From positions 1 through 64,000 of the forward strand of contig NZ_JBFNQN010000005.1 of the NCBI RefSeq assembly GCF_040796495.1: a stretch of DNA of 64,000 nucleotides, in the 5' to 3' direction. The DNA comes from Kineococcus endophyticus (lineage in GTDB: Bacteria > Actinomycetota > Actinomycetes > Actinomycetales > Kineococcaceae). The translations under genes and the position numbers were made by a program. The notes beneath the pieces are model-generated. The model was not told the origin of the DNA. It did not search any database and saw only the letters and a program-made list of their open reading frames with translations. Positions 29,391 to 48,261 of this stretch are shown here, one piece after another; position 1 is the stretch's first letter; each line of letters opens with the position of its first letter.

Positions 29391-29397
29391 GCGGTCT

Positions 29398-29425
29398 ATT
29401 TTGCTGACAAAACTCAGGGGGGCAA
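29398..29425 (-). promoter_or_regulatory. padC promoter with MarR-type operator
   Basis: TTTTG-CTGA-CAAAA (29399-29412) is an inverted repeat standing out in this GC-rich sequence. On the minus strand CAAAAT (29398-29403) is a -10 seven nt before the padC start, with TTGCCC (29420-29425) 16 bp upstream as -35. The palindrome fills the -10 and spacer, so a bound dimer would block padC. Confidence 0.6.
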
Positions 29426-29447
29426 CCCGAGCGGGCAGGATGGGCGC

Positions 29448-42406: not shown

Positions 42407-45100
42407 TCAGGTGGGCAGGGTCCGGCGGTCGGGGTCGGCGCGGCCCTGCGGGGGCGCGACGCGGACGACGGCGTCCAGGCACGTCAGCCCCTGCTCGGCG
42501 ACGAGGACGGGGCTCAGCCGCAGCTCGGCGAGCTCGGGCAGCGCGTCGGCGAGCACGGCGACGCGGGCGACGACGTCCTCCAGGGCCAGCACGTCCAGGC
42601 GCGGGGACCCGCGGTGCCCGAACAGCTTGGGTGCGGCCTTGACGGAGCGGACGAGGTCGGCGACGTCGACGTCGGTCAGCGGCGGGATGCGGTAGGCGAC
42701 GTCCCCCATGAGGTCGATCGGGTCGCCCTCGACGCCGAAGGCGAGCACGGGCCCGAACAGGGGGTCCTCGGTGCTGCGGACGAGGCAGGGGACGCCGAGC
42801 GGGGCCATGGGCTGCACGGCCAGGGCCTTCACCTCCGAGCCGAAGACGGCCCGCATCTCGCCCACCGCGGCGCGCAGCGCGTCGGCGCTGGACAGCCCGA
42901 GGCGGACGCCCCGCAGGTCCTGCCGGCCCGCCAGCGCCTCCCCGACGGTCTTGAGCGCGACGGGCCACCCGAAGCGCTCCGCGGCGCGCACGGCCTCCTC
43001 GGCGGCGTCCTCCCCGGCCGCGACCTCGGCGCGCGGCAGCAGGGGGACGCCGACGGCGGTGAGCAGCTCGGTCCGGGCCTCGCGGTCCAGCAGGGCGCCG
43101 TCGGGGTGGGCGGCCAGGACCCGGTCGACCACGGCGCGCGCCCGCGGCAGGTCGACGCCCTCGGGCGCGACGGGGTGGCCGCGCTCCTTGCGCCGCCACT
43201 GCGCGTACCGCACGACCGAGGCCAGGGCCCGGACCGCGTCCTCGGGGGTGGGGAAGCTCGGGACCGACGGGCAGTCGTCCCCCGGGTCCCCCGAACCGAC
43301 ACGGGCCGCCGACACCGACCGGGTCCCCAGGAAGCACGTCACGCACGTCTTGCCGCCCTCGGCCGCGGTGCGGGCGACGGCCGTGGCCACGGCGGCGTCC
43401 ACCGTGGCGGTGGGGGGCACCCAGCTCGCCACCACGGCGTCGACCTCGGGGTCGGCGAAGGCGTCGCGCAGGGCGGCGGTGAACTCCTCGACGGGGGCCT
43501 CGGGGTGCACGGACGCGGGTCCGTGGACGACCTGCAGCCCCCAGCTGACGCAGGCGTCGGCGGCGAGGGTCCCCAGGGCGTCGGAGTTCCCGACGATGGC
43601 GATGCGGGCGCCCTCGGGCAGCGGCTGCTCGACGGTCACCTGGGCCACGTCGAAGAGCTGGTGGACGTTCTCGACGCGGATGACGCCGGCCTGCCGCAGC
43701 ATGCTGTCGACGACCTCGAACGGCACCTGCGAGCGCCGGACGGTGTGCCCGGGCGGGACACCGAAACCCGAGGCGCCGGACTTGACGACGATGACGGGTT
43801 TGCGGCGGGCCAGCCGGCGGGCGACGCGGCTGAACTTGCGGGGGTTCCCGACGCTCTCGAGGTAGAGGCCGACGGCGGCGGTGGCCTCGTCGTCGTGCCA
43901 GAACTGCATGAGGTCGTTGCCCGAGACGTCCGCGCGGTTGCCGGCCGAGACGAACGTCGAGATCCCCAGGCCGCGGCGGTGCGCGGAACTGAGGACGGTG
44001 ACGGCCAGGGCCCCGGACTGGCTGAACAACCCGAACCGGCCCGGCGGCGGCACCTCCTGGGCGAGCGAGGCGTTCAGGCGGACGTCGGCGGCGGTGTTCA
44101 CGACGCCGAAGGAGTTCGGGCCGATGACGCGCATGCCGTTGGCGCGGGCGATGCGGACCAGTTCGCGCTGCAGCCCCACTCCCTCGGGACCGGTCTCGGC
44201 GAAACCACTGGAGACGACCACGAGACCGCGCACACCGGCTGCGGCGCAGTCGGTCACGGCCTCCAGGACGGTCGCGGGGGCGACGGCGACCACGGCGAGG
44301 TCGACGGGTTCGCCGATGTCGGCGACGGTGGCGTGCAGGCGGACCCCGAGGAGTTCCTCCCCGGCCCCGGCGGCGTTCACGGCGTGGACGGTGCCGGCGA
44401 AGTCCCCCGCCAGCAGGTCGGCCAGCAACCGGTGCCCGACGGTGCCGACGGTGCGCCGGGCGCCCACGACGACGACCGAGCGCGGGGTCAGCAGGGCCGT
44501 CAGGCTGCGGGCCTCGGCGCGCTGCTCGCGGGCCTGCATGACGTCGACGGAGCGCTCGGTCGGGTCGATGTCGAAGGACACGTCGAGGACGCCGTCGGAG
44601 AACCCCTGGCGGACCTCGAAACCGGCCTCGCGGAAGACGCCGATCATCTTGGCGTTCGTCGGCAGGACGTCGGCGGTGAAGCGGCGGATGCCGCGTTCGC
44701 GAGCAGCGGCGGCGAGGTGCTCGAGCAGCACGGACCCCAGGCCGCGTCCCTGGTGGGCGTCGGAGATGTTGAAGGCGACCTCCGCCGAGCGGGGCCGGCC
44801 GGGGCGGACGGGGGCGGCGTCGAAGCGCGCGATGCCGACGATGTCCTCCCCCACGGTCGCCACGAGCGCGACGCGGTCGACGTGGTCGACCTGGGTGAAG
44901 CGGGCCAGGTCGCGTCGCGAGAGCCGGGGCATGGGGGCGAAGAAGCGGAAGTAGCGGGACTCGTCGGACTGCCGGTCGTGGAAGGCCGCGACCGCGTCGG
45001 CGTCCTCGGGCCGGATGGGCCGCACGTGCGCCGTCCCGCCGTCGCGCAGGGCGACGTCGGCCTCCCACCGGGTCGGGTAGCCCACGGGCGGCAGCGGCAT
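42407..45100 (-). CDS. Bifunctional GNAT acetyltransferase / NDP-forming acyl-CoA synthetase (Pat-like)
   Basis: An 897-residue fusion. Residues about 1-180 are a GNAT domain (AHVRPIRPEDADAVAAFHDR, ISDAHQGRGLGSVLLEHLAA, VLPTNAKMIGVFREAGFEV). Then come a CoA-binding domain (LLTPRSVVVVGARR), a succinyl-CoA-ligase-like domain (FGLFSQSGALAVTVLSSAHR, FVSAGNRADVSGNDLMQFW) and an ATP-grasp domain (FGWPVALKTVGEAL, VFGVEGDPIDLMGDVAYRIPP in part). This is the actinobacterial form of Pat/AcuA-type lysine acetyltransferases, with GNAT at the front and not at the back. It likely acetylates acyl-CoA synthetases. ATG 45100 has TAGGAT 7 nt upstream. Confidence 0.92.
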   Translation of the reverse strand: MPLPPVGYPTRWEADVALRDGGTAHVRPIRPEDADAVAAFHDRQSDESRYFRFFAPMPRLSRRDLARFTQVDHVDRVALVATVGEDIVGIARFDAAPVRPGRPRSAEVAFNISDAHQGRGLGSVLLEHLAAAARERGIRRFTADVLPTNAKMIGVFREAGFEVRQGFSDGVLDVSFDIDPTERSVDVMQAREQRAEARSLTALLTPRSVVVVGARRTVGTVGHRLLADLLAGDFAGTVHAVNAAGAGEELLGVRLHATVADIGEPVDLAVVAVAPATVLEAVTDCAAAGVRGLVVVSSGFAETGPEGVGLQRELVRIARANGMRVIGPNSFGVVNTAADVRLNASLAQEVPPPGRFGLFSQSGALAVTVLSSAHRRGLGISTFVSAGNRADVSGNDLMQFWHDDEATAAVGLYLESVGNPRKFSRVARRLARRKPVIVVKSGASGFGVPPGHTVRRSQVPFEVVDSMLRQAGVIRVENVHQLFDVAQVTVEQPLPEGARIAIVGNSDALGTLAADACVSWGLQVVHGPASVHPEAPVEEFTAALRDAFADPEVDAVVASWVPPTATVDAAVATAVARTAAEGGKTCVTCFLGTRSVSAARVGSGDPGDDCPSVPSFPTPEDAVRALASVVRYAQWRRKERGHPVAPEGVDLPRARAVVDRVLAAHPDGALLDREARTELLTAVGVPLLPRAEVAAGEDAAEEAVRAAERFGWPVALKTVGEALAGRQDLRGVRLGLSSADALRAAVGEMRAVFGSEVKALAVQPMAPLGVPCLVRSTEDPLFGPVLAFGVEGDPIDLMGDVAYRIPPLTDVDVADLVRSVKAAPKLFGHRGSPRLDVLALEDVVARVAVLADALPELAELRLSPVLVAEQGLTCLDAVVRVAPPQGRADPDRRTLPT

Positions 45101-45107
45101 GGTCCCG

Positions 45108-45120
45108 ATCCTACGAGGAT
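45108..45120. promoter_or_regulatory. Symmetrical bidirectional -10 between pat-like and nitroreductase genes
   Basis: ATCCT-ACG-AGGAT (45108-45120) is a perfect inverted repeat. Read leftward it gives TAGGAT (45108-45113) 7 nt before ATG 45100; read rightward GAGGAT (45115-45120) 6 nt before GTG 45127. Only 26 bp separate the two start codons, so one site should drive both genes and both mRNAs should be leaderless. Confidence 0.65.
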
Positions 45121-45126
45121 GGGGCC

Positions 45127-45750
45127 GTGGAGTACTCCGAGGTCCTGCGGGCGCGGCGCATGGTCCGCCGCTACGACGGGCGGCCCGTGGCCGACGACGT
45201 CCTCGGCCGGGTCGTGGCCGCGGGGCTGCGCGCGCCCAGCGCCGGCAACAGCCAGGGCCGGGACCTGCTGGTGCTGCGCTCGCCGGCCGACCGGGAGCTC
45301 TTCTGGAGCACGACCGCGGGGACCCGGGACGCCGGCGCGGCGCCGGACCGTTGGCTGACGGGCATGCGCACGGCCCCCGTCGTCGTGCTGCTGCTGGCCG
45401 ACCCCGCCGCCTACGCCCGGCGGTACGCCGCCCCCGACAAGCCGGGACCGGACCGCGACGCCGCCACCTGGGAGGTCGCCTGGCCCGACGTCGACACCGG
45501 CATGTCCGGTCTGCTGGTCCTGCTCGCGGCCGTCGACGAGGGCCTGGGGGCGTGCCTGTTCGGCGTCCCCTCGGCGGCGCACGCGGCGGTCCGCGCGGTC
45601 TTCGCGGTCCCGGCGGACCGGCGCGTCGTCGCGGCGCTCACGCTGGGGCACCCGGCGCCCGGGGAGGCCTCGCGACCGTCCCGGCTGCACCGGCGGACGG
45701 TGGCGGACGCGGTGCACGACGGGCGGTTCGGCGTGCCCTGGAGCCGGTGA
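45127..45750 (+). CDS. Nitroreductase family protein
   Basis: A 207-residue FMN-dependent reductase fold. It begins MEYSEVLRARRMVRRYDGRP with the FMN-binding Arg cluster, followed by GLRAPSAGNSQGRDLLVL (PSAGNxQ), and later DEGLGACLFGVP and the C-terminal LGHPAPGEASRPSRLHRR, all typical of the nitroreductase superfamily. The natural substrate is unknown. GTG 45127 has GAGGAT ending exactly 6 nt before it. It shares a 26-bp promoter region with the divergent Pat-like gene and is followed by parC after 27 bp. Confidence 0.92.
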   Translation: MEYSEVLRARRMVRRYDGRPVADDVLGRVVAAGLRAPSAGNSQGRDLLVLRSPADRELFWSTTAGTRDAGAAPDRWLTGMRTAPVVVLLLADPAAYARRYAAPDKPGPDRDAATWEVAWPDVDTGMSGLLVLLAAVDEGLGACLFGVPSAAHAAVRAVFAVPADRRVVAALTLGHPAPGEASRPSRLHRRTVADAVHDGRFGVPWSR

Positions 45751-45777: not shown

Positions 45778-48261
45778 GTGCCCAGCAGATCCGGACCTCC
45801 GCCGACCGACGTCCCCGAGCGGATCGTCGACATCGACGTCGAGCAGGAGATGCAGGGCGCGTTCCTCGAGTACGCCTACTCGGTCATCTACTCCCGGGCC
45901 CTGCCCGACGCCCGCGACGGCCTCAAGCCGGTCCAGCGCCGCATCCTCTACATGATGCAGGACATGGGGTTGATCCCCGCCCGGGCGCACGTGAAGTCCG
46001 CCCGCGTCGTCGGTGAGGTGATGGGCAAGCTCCACCCGCACGGCGACGTCGCGATCTACGACGCCCTCGTCCGCCAGGCGCAGGCCTTCACCATGCGGCT
46101 GCCCCTCATCGACGGGCACGGCAACTTCGGCTCCCTCGACGCCGGTCCGGCCGCACAGCGGTACACCGAGGCCCGGATGGCGCCCGCCGCGCTGCTCATG
46201 ACGACGGGGCTGGACGAGGACGTCGTCGACTTCGTCCCGAACTACGACGACCGCCTCAAGGAGCCCGGCGTCCTGCCCGCGGCGTTCCCGAACCTGCTCG
46301 TCAACGGGGCCAGCGGCATCGCCGTCGGCATGGCGACGAACATGCCGCCGCACAACCTCGTCGAGGTCGTCAACGCGGCCCGGCACCTCATCAAGCACCC
46401 CGACGCGGACCTGCCGGCGCTCATGCGGTTCGTCCCCGGTCCGGACTTCCCCACCGGCGGGCGCATCGTCGGCCTGGAGGGCATCCGCGACGCCTACGCC
46501 GCGGGCCGCGGCACGTTCCGCACCCGGGCCAGCGTCAAGGTGGAGAAGATCGGGCGCCGGCAGGGCCTGGTCGTCACCGAACTGCCCTACGGCGTCGGCC
46601 CCGAACGCCTCGTCGAGAAGATCGCCGACAACGTCAAGAACAAGCGCCTGCAGGGCATCGCGGACGTCACGGACCTGTCCGACCGCCGCAACGGCATGCG
46701 CCTGGTCATCGAGGTCAAGAACGGGTTCAACCCCGAGGCGGTGCTGGAACAGCTCTACCGGCTGACGCCGATGGAGGAGACGTTCGGCATCAACAACGTG
46801 GCCCTCGTCGAGGGCCAGCCGCGGACGCTGGGGCTGAAGGAACTCCTCGAGGTGTTCGTCGGGCACCGCGTCGACGTCGTCCGCCGGCGCACGCAGTTCC
46901 GCCTCGGCAAGGCGCAGGACCGCCTGCACCTCGTCGACGGCCTGCTGCTGGCCATCATCGACATCGACGAGGTCATCGCGATCGTGCGGTCCTCCGACGA
47001 CGCGAACGCCGCGCTGGCCCGCCTGGTCGAGCGGTTCTCCCTGTCCGAGACCCAGGGCCGCTACATCCTCGACATGCAGCTGCGCCGCCTGACGCGGTTC
47101 TCCCGCATCGAGCTCGAGCGCGAGCAGGCAGAACTGCAGGCGACGATCGCGGAGCTGCAGGCGATCCTCGACGACGAGCAGCGGTTGCGGACCCTCGTCA
47201 GCGACGAGCTCGGCCAGGTGGCGGCCGACCACGGCACCCCGCGCCGGACGGTGCTGCTGACGTCGTCGGGGCCGGCGACGGGTGCGGCGGCCGCGGCGCA
47301 GCTGGAGATCGAGGACGACCCGTGCTGGGTGCTGCTGAGCTCGACGGGGTTGCTGGCCCGGACGAGTTCGGCCGAGCCCCTGGGCACCGAGGGCCGGCGC
47401 GCCCGGCACGACCTCGTCACCGCCGCCGCCCCGGCCACCGCGCGCGGCGACGTCGGCGTCCTGACCTCGGCCGGCCGGCTGGTCAAGGTCTCGGTGCTGG
47501 AACTGCCGACGCTGCCGCCGGTCGCGGGACGGCCGAACCTGTCCGGCGGGACGAGCGTCAAGGAGTTCGTGACGCTCGGCAAGGGCGAACGGGCGCTGAC
47601 GATCGTGCCGCTGCCCGTGGCGGGCGTGGAGGACCCCGACGACCCGGGGTTCGCGCTGGCCACGGCCTCGGGCGTCGTCAAGCGCGTCGTGCCCGAACCC
47701 CTCGGCAACCGTCCGGAGGTCGAGGTCATCGCGCTGAAGGACCTCACGGCCCGGCAGAAGGACGAGGTCGTGGCGGCCACCGCCCTGACCACCGGTCAGG
47801 AGGACCTCGTCTTCGTCACGACGGACGCGCAGCTGCTGCGCTTCTCCGCCGCGCTGGTGCGGCCGCAGGGCCGCGGGGCCGCGGGGATGGCGGGGATCAA
47901 GCTGTCCCCCGGTGCGCGGGTCGTCGCCATGACGGCTGTCGCGGCGGACGCCACCGACGCGGTGGTCGTCACGGTCGCCGGGGACGCGGCCGGCGGGGCC
48001 TCGCAGGTCGGCTCGGCCAAGGTCACCCCGCTGTCGGAGTACCCGTCGAAGGGCCGCGCCACGGGCGGGGTCCGCTGCCACCGGTTCGCGCGCGGCGAGG
48101 ACTCGCTGCTGCTCGCATGGGCAGGGCGGGGACCGGCCGAGGCCGCGACGTCGACGGGCAGCGCCGTGGCGCTGCCCGGCCCGCAGGGCCGCCGCGACGG
48201 GTCGGGCACCGCGCTCGACAAGCCCGTGGCGGCCGTCGGCGGTCCGCCCGCCACGAGCTGA
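45778..48261 (+). CDS. parC: DNA topoisomerase IV subunit A
   Basis: An 827-residue type IIA topoisomerase subunit. The DNA-breakage domain has [36 protein letters not shown] and [10 protein letters not shown] (catalytic Tyr129); [20 protein letters not shown] follows. A coiled-coil and a C-terminal beta-pinwheel come after about residue 480. The GyrA box (QRRGGKG-like) is absent, which favours ParC over GyrA; parE is not in the window. The residue matching E. coli ParC Ser80/GyrA Ser83 is Val91. GTG 45778 has CAGAAT ending exactly 6 nt upstream. Confidence 0.93.

Follow-up and report, generated by a model that had tools for sequence, protein, structure and literature searches.

Two divergently oriented genes of the soil bacterium Kineococcus, one encoding a Pat-like protein and the other a nitroreductase, are separated by only 26 bp, and a perfect inverted repeat lies in the middle of the gap. 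Is this repeat a single promoter that is read in both directions, or is it the place where two independent promoters meet? We addressed this question in a window of 64,000 nucleotides (the whole stretch of DNA that was analyzed) and by comparison with related loci. The genome carrying the window (G000) measures 5.04 Mb, and its close relatives belong to Kineococcus. The features of the locus are as follows.

42407 to 45100, minus strand: SlPatA-type gene, 897 aa, ATG start, identified by Pfam, NCBIfam, and PDB matches
45101 to 45126, no strand: intergenic spacer with both putative promoter elements back to back and the inverted repeat inside
45108 to 45113, minus strand: putative -10 element TAGGAT of the Pat-like gene, fitting TANNNT and ending 7 nt before the ATG
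45115 to 45120, plus strand: putative -10-like element GAGGAT of the nitroreductase gene, lacking the first T and ending 6 nt before the GTG
45127 to 45750, plus strand: nitroreductase family gene (PF00881), 207 aa, GTG start, identified by Pfam and NCBIfam matches

The larger protein begins with a GNAT domain, which is followed by CoA-binding, succinyl-CoA-ligase-like, and ATP-grasp domains (Pfam and NCBIfam). Its residues 8 to 178 match PDB entry 4nxy_A (E = 3e-57), while residues 197 to 887 match PDB entries titled "Protein acetyltransferase" (9it0 and 9isq). Both the Pfam order and the PDB matches thus place GNAT N-terminal to a large CoA-ligase-like part, the arrangement that we use to define the SlPatA type. 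In SlPatA from Streptomyces lividans, GNAT is likewise at the N terminus, opposite to the order in the Salmonella enzyme (PMC4053389). The likeness to SlPatA consists of that N-terminal GNAT and the large second part; the acetyltransferase role of the Kineococcus gene is predicted from its domains. On the other side of the locus, 27 bp past the nitroreductase gene, lies another gene (45778 to 48261) that by eye resembles a type II topoisomerase subunit A. With CAGAAT 6 nt before its GTG, it may have a leaderless promoter of its own.

The spacer reads GGTCCCGATCCTACGAGGATGGGGCC and is flanked by the CAT of the minus-strand ORF (45098 to 45100) and the GTG of the plus-strand ORF (at 45127). Both the palindrome and the distances from hexamer to start codon (7 nt and 6 nt) were exactly as given in the initial annotation. 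That annotation had also described a "perfectly symmetrical -10," a description that goes too far. The inverted repeat ATCCT-ACG-AGGAT (45108 to 45120) is indeed perfect, with a 5-3-5 layout, but it is made of two neighboring hexamers whose first bases differ (T on the minus strand, G on the plus strand). These hexamers are separate, do not overlap, and lie 1 bp apart. When compared to the actinobacterial leaderless type, in which TANNNT precedes the start codon by 6 to 8 nt, the Pat side conforms (TAGGAT at 7 nt), whereas GAGGAT on the nitroreductase side does not, its first T being absent. Judged by eye and without statistics, there was no TTGACA-like -35 match 16 to 18 bp upstream of either hexamer. 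The RNA is predicted to start at the A of the ATG or 1 nt before it on the Pat side, and at the G of the GTG on the nitroreductase side; both start codons are themselves predictions.

A short palindrome is weak evidence for a promoter. The position of a hexamer relative to a start codon is stronger evidence, and we determined what is usual for this genome in a sample of 1.264 Mb, in which 1,154 genes were called and 1,150 had usable upstream regions. Genes were called with a simple script that relied on codon usage only and was blind to upstream signals, so that start errors blur the following counts. At 6, 7, and 8 nt upstream of the 1,150 starts, we counted TANNNT 66, 41, and 22 times, compared to 0 to 3 times at each other distance from 0 to 29 nt. 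Hexamers of the form [CG]ANNNT were also anchored to starts, with 106 at 6 nt and 31 at 7 nt versus 6 to 24 at other distances. Because of these peaks, both hexamers of the spacer can be said to occupy the usual leaderless-type -10 position of the genome. The two types differed in their spacing: counts at 6, 7, and 8 nt were 55, 7, and 5 for [CG]A..AT versus 66, 41, and 22 for TA...T, such that the [CG] type sits mostly at exactly 6 nt. This narrower spacing possibly reflects two initiation geometries. The low count at 7 nt may partly be an artifact of start choice, as GATG at that place yields an in-frame ATG.

The position of GAGGAT has a second possible meaning, since the hexamer includes AGGA at Shine-Dalgarno distance. 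Only the Pat promoter might be real, with AGGA serving as the ribosome-binding site of a nitroreductase RNA whose start lies farther upstream, within the coding sequence of Pat. In favor of such a site, GAGGA ends 7 nt before the GTG, the hexamer lacks the first T of the standard element, and AGGA and GAGG were themselves enriched about 5 to 9 nt before starts in the genome sample. We nevertheless regard it as unlikely. Among the 1,150 starts, the variant [CG]A[not G]GAT, which contains no Shine-Dalgarno-like tetramer, was found 14 times at 6 nt and 0 to 3 times elsewhere, and the comparison with relatives described below points the same way.

The pairing of the two genes is old, as judged from its distribution. 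Of 61 named Pat loci, 32 have a nitroreductase gene divergently upstream, and 28 of these belong to genera other than Kineococcus, namely Terrabacter, Phycicoccus, Humibacillus, Intrasporangium, and their relatives. Among the remaining 29 loci, some had too little upstream sequence, and in genera such as Nocardioides, Cellulomonas, Georgenia, and Brachybacterium no such gene was found within 2 kb. With a pairing of this age, the spacer may link protein acetylation to a flavin reductase, as the initial annotation proposed. Both starts were resolved at 25 loci outside Kineococcus, and 20 of these have a gap of 52 to 56 bp, although many come from close relatives (several Terrabacter and Phycicoccus) and are not independent. 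For this count the start was taken as the first one with a hexamer, which makes it circular as a measure of hexamer presence; the automatic choice gave an incorrect Pat start at L021 and an incorrect nitroreductase start at L035, and neither L072 nor L074 had a resolved start. Across Terrabacter, Phycicoccus, and relatives (L027 to L069), the length of the gap is strikingly constant while the sequence between the hexamers varies.

On the nitroreductase side, the start was instead fixed by alignment to the query. Here 38 distinct upstream regions were compared (Kineococcus included), of which 37 had NANNNT 6 or 7 nt before the start, compared to 0 to 8 of 38 at other distances. Eight of the loci aligned from residue 18 to 20, and their starts were extrapolated. 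The Kineococcus loci L021, L023, L024, and L061 were left out in favor of the family genomes, G007 is absent, as its contig stops 2 bases short of the start codon, and 39 regions reduced to the 38 distinct ones. A Shine-Dalgarno-like tetramer (AGGA, GGAG, or GAGG, at -15 to -4) was present in only 16 of these 38 regions and is thus not a conserved feature of the gene. All 22 regions that lack one keep NANNNT at 6 or 7 nt, in forms such as GACGAT, CACACT, and GACGCT, which argues against a ribosome-binding site as the reason for the hexamer.

A similar picture emerged on the Pat side. Outside Kineococcus, a -10-like hexamer preceded a possible in-frame Pat start at 50 of 53 loci, a generous figure given that several candidate starts were tried per locus and the one bearing a hexamer was taken. 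TANNNT accounted for 21 of the 53 loci (shifted control, 0 of 53) and [CG]A..[AC]T for 29 (7 hits over three shifted controls together), leaving 3 with neither type. The 53 were drawn from the 57 loci L025 to L081, with the omission of L034 and L061 (Kineococcus) and of L050 and L070 (start missing). Because both hexamer types occupy the same place of the same gene across genera, GAGGAT is best interpreted as a -10 element rather than as a ribosome-binding site. This interchange in orthologues is, on comparative grounds, the strongest argument for that assignment. It also suggests that NANNNT without the first T can replace TANNNT at leaderless starts, which, if true, would matter for gene-start finding in high-GC Actinobacteria.

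We then turned to the family genomes, in which the spacer itself can be followed. Each of the 12 genomes has one match to the nitroreductase, and in the 10 whose contig extends far enough, the gene adjoins Pat. Conservation of the spacer as such was limited: its length is 26 bp in 5 of the 10 genomes with both starts (G000, G003, G001, G005, and G009), and the perfect palindrome occurs at the locus in only 3 of the 12 (G000, G003, and G001). What has been kept far more widely is the position of each hexamer. TANNNT lies 6 to 7 nt before the Pat ATG in all 10 genomes where the Pat start is present, as well as at the named loci L022 and L034. The nitroreductase GTG is likewise preceded by NANNNT at 6 to 7 nt in 9 of the 10 genomes with both starts and in G002, for which only that side is available; the exception is G004, whose 42-bp spacer has no NANNNT hexamer at that distance. 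In the longer spacers of G008 (54 bp), G006 (63 bp), G010 (122 bp), and G011 (246 bp), each hexamer is still 6 to 7 nt from its own start. The upstream region of the nitroreductase gene in G010 (L016) contains an inverted repeat, CGGTCGTGATCTTCC ... GGAAGATCACGACCG, between the two putative promoters, both hexamers being intact; it looks like an inserted palindromic repeat.

Within the five 26-bp genomes, the hexamers are constrained. Eleven of the 12 hexamer columns are invariant (TAGGAT, 6/6; GAGGAT, 5/6), compared to 5 of the 14 other spacer columns (Fisher P = 0.005) and to 103 of 334 fourfold-degenerate sites of both genes (P = 3e-5). This constraint could come from a bound regulator. Divergent gene pairs are often coregulated, and a perfect 5-3-5 inverted repeat is what one would expect of an operator for a dimeric regulator common to both genes. 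Yet the pattern ATCCTNNNAGGAT occurs once in G000, and although it was found in 4 of the 12 family genomes (control pattern, 0 of 12), only 3 of these have it at this locus, the three further matches all lying elsewhere in G009. In G005 and G009 one arm is altered (ATCCT/ACGAT), but NANNNT remains in place at an unchanged distance, and in other relatives the arms are separate. An operator is therefore highly improbable, and an operator with a multicopy regulon was rejected on the single copy in G000.

The same comparisons bear on whether the spacer is a true shared-element bidirectional promoter, in which symmetry has been selected and one site, read both ways, sets the ratio of the two products. 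Such a promoter would predict what five genomes show, namely adjoining hexamers and a length of exactly 26 bp. However, symmetry was lost in G005 and G009, the spacer of G004 is 42 bp long, and the hexamers have no bases in common. Furthermore, the predicted starts are 26 to 27 bp apart, outside the range of 7 to 25 bp and the modes of 10, 18, and 23 bp reported for such promoters in enteric bacteria (PMC10268837 and PMC12825309). We consider this explanation very unlikely. Selection on the palindrome as a unit was likewise set aside as the main reading, because only 3 of 12 genomes have the perfect repeat here, whereas the hexamers are maintained one by one. For the initial annotation this cuts both ways. 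Its proposal of two opposed promoters, each with a leaderless mRNA, is supported by the comparison, in which the start-anchored hexamers are widely kept, while its notion of one palindromic promoter as a conserved unit finds no support in relatives, where the hexamers drift apart separately.

We built a tree from the nitroreductase together with the N-terminal portion of Pat, G002 and G007 being represented by the nitroreductase only. It split the five 26-bp genomes plus G004 from the others with 98% support. Inside this group, G000 and G003 paired with 100% support and joined G005 and G001 with 96%, whereas support was 58% for G005 with G001 and 48% for G009 with G004. From this topology, the gap would have shrunk within or before this group of six. 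With 48% support for its position, G004 may have lengthened again or may have branched off first, and the number of length changes depends on which.

Taken together, the spacer very probably carries two separate housekeeping-type leaderless promoters placed back to back, their palindrome having arisen by coincidence after the gap was compacted. The Pat side would use a standard actinobacterial -10 (TAGGAT), with RNA beginning at or beside the start codon, and the nitroreductase side GAGGAT, a common variant that lacks the first T. We infer promoter activity and RNA start sites on both sides, as well as the direction of the length change: across related families, this pair of start-anchored elements lies at either end of a gap that mostly measures 52 to 56 bp, and in one Kineococcus group the gap would have shrunk to 26 bp, with the hexamers nearly touching. 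Since the perfect palindrome occurs in only 3 genomes and the 26-bp spacer in 5 of 10, the symmetry looks like a by-product of compaction, a chance outcome of two similar hexamers meeting.

Compaction would also have moved both upstream (-35) regions into the opposite genes. This need not matter, because Mycobacterium tuberculosis promoters are reported to have no conserved -35 (PMC3898074). With elements 1 bp apart, only one RNA polymerase would be accommodated at a time. The footprint of RNA polymerase is about 75 bp, and mutual exclusion is plausible from size alone; it would hold in wider-gap relatives too. Exclusion, if relevant, would predate compaction, because footprints of this size would collide at gaps of 52 to 56 bp as well. 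Bidirectional promoters tested in Escherichia coli had low basal activity, a property that limits such competition unless transcription one way rises (PMC12825309). Given that low basal activity, little coupling between Pat and nitroreductase is expected at rest.

The compactness of the locus had been presented as something singular, a view that did not hold up against the rest of the genome. Among 208 divergent pairs of the 1.264-Mb sample, a leaderless-type signal preceded 126 of the 416 genes, compared to 11 to 14 of 416 at four shifted positions. The signal was present on both sides of 19 pairs, and independence predicts 19.08; leaderless/leaderless pairs thus appear to be ordinary, with no mutual preference and no enrichment. 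One further divergent pair lies in the window itself (29391 to 29447), with a 57-bp gap and with CAAAAT and CAGGAT 7 and 6 nt from the starts. When gaps of positive length were ranked, the shortest were 16, 22, and 26 bp, which makes the Pat/nitroreductase spacer the third. The 16-bp gap carries no such signal.

The 22-bp gap does (G000:C1:312305-312326, equal to L111:12305-12326). It separates a pepA-like gene from a GNAT gene, both named by eye from their sequences, and contains TAGGGT and TAACGT, which share a central TA and are each 6 nt from a GTG. The length of 22 bp is kept in all six genomes of the group (G000, G003, G005, G001, G004, and G009). Outside the group, G002, G006, G007, and G008 have pepA with TAGGGT or TAGGCT 6 nt before the GTG and no opposed TAACGT, so the shared element seems to be confined to the group. 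For G011 no pepA start was resolved, and the pepA match in G010 is distant. The GNAT start is less certain, as the N terminus varies and homology starts at residue 29 to 30. The predicted start sites are 23 bp apart. The pepA/GNAT spacer may accordingly be a true bidirectional promoter of the leaderless, shared-element kind and, on its sequence, would illustrate the idea of a bidirectional promoter better than the 26-bp spacer does.

It is conceivable, though doubtful, that divergent leaderless promoters in this Kineococcus group have been pushed to the smallest of gaps (26 bp at Pat/nitroreductase and 22 bp at pepA/GNAT), where competition of polymerases for a single site would set a reciprocal balance of two proteins without a regulator or leader RNA. 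If the main reading of two back-to-back leaderless promoters is right, nature provides a series of gaps of 246, 122, 63, 54, 42, and 26 bp at one locus and of 22 bp at another. Such a series would allow one to ask at what distance opposed promoters begin to interfere in organisms that rely mostly on the -10 and often lack RNA leaders.

In one open-access literature collection, we found no paper on leaderless promoters in Kineococcus. Among known systems, the 26-bp spacer is a new and tight case of divergent leaderless promoter pairs, and it overturns nothing known. Leaderless genes with TANNNT exceed 20% in Actinobacteria (PMC3160421), and the motif lies about 12 bp upstream of their start codons (PMC3160421 and PMC3898074). 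The Pat side resembles these genes in position and sequence, and the Kineococcus genome has many such genes; the nitroreductase side differs in lacking the first T (GAGGAT), and leaderless status here is predicted from sequence. M. tuberculosis is reported to have closely juxtaposed divergent promoters, including at least one divergent leaderless/leaderless pair, prpD/Rv1129c (PMC3898074). The likeness lies in the divergent arrangement with leaderless RNA on both sides, which in Kineococcus is predicted; when set beside that pair, the Kineococcus spacer has a gap of 26 bp and -10 elements 1 bp apart.

The symmetry-based promoters of enteric bacteria offer a second comparison. Common start-site distances are 18 bp and also 10 and 23 bp in E. 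coli (PMC12825309), and start sites are 7 to 25 bp apart in Salmonella (PMC10268837). The Kineococcus spacer is similar in that its opposed -10 elements are close enough for polymerase exclusion to be expected. By definition, starts in this class lie beside or within a shared -10. At Pat/nitroreductase, in contrast, the hexamers do not overlap, no -10 is shared, and the predicted starts fall just beyond the Salmonella range. The pepA/GNAT spacer, with its shared TA and a predicted distance that is one of those common in E. coli, fits the symmetry-based class better.
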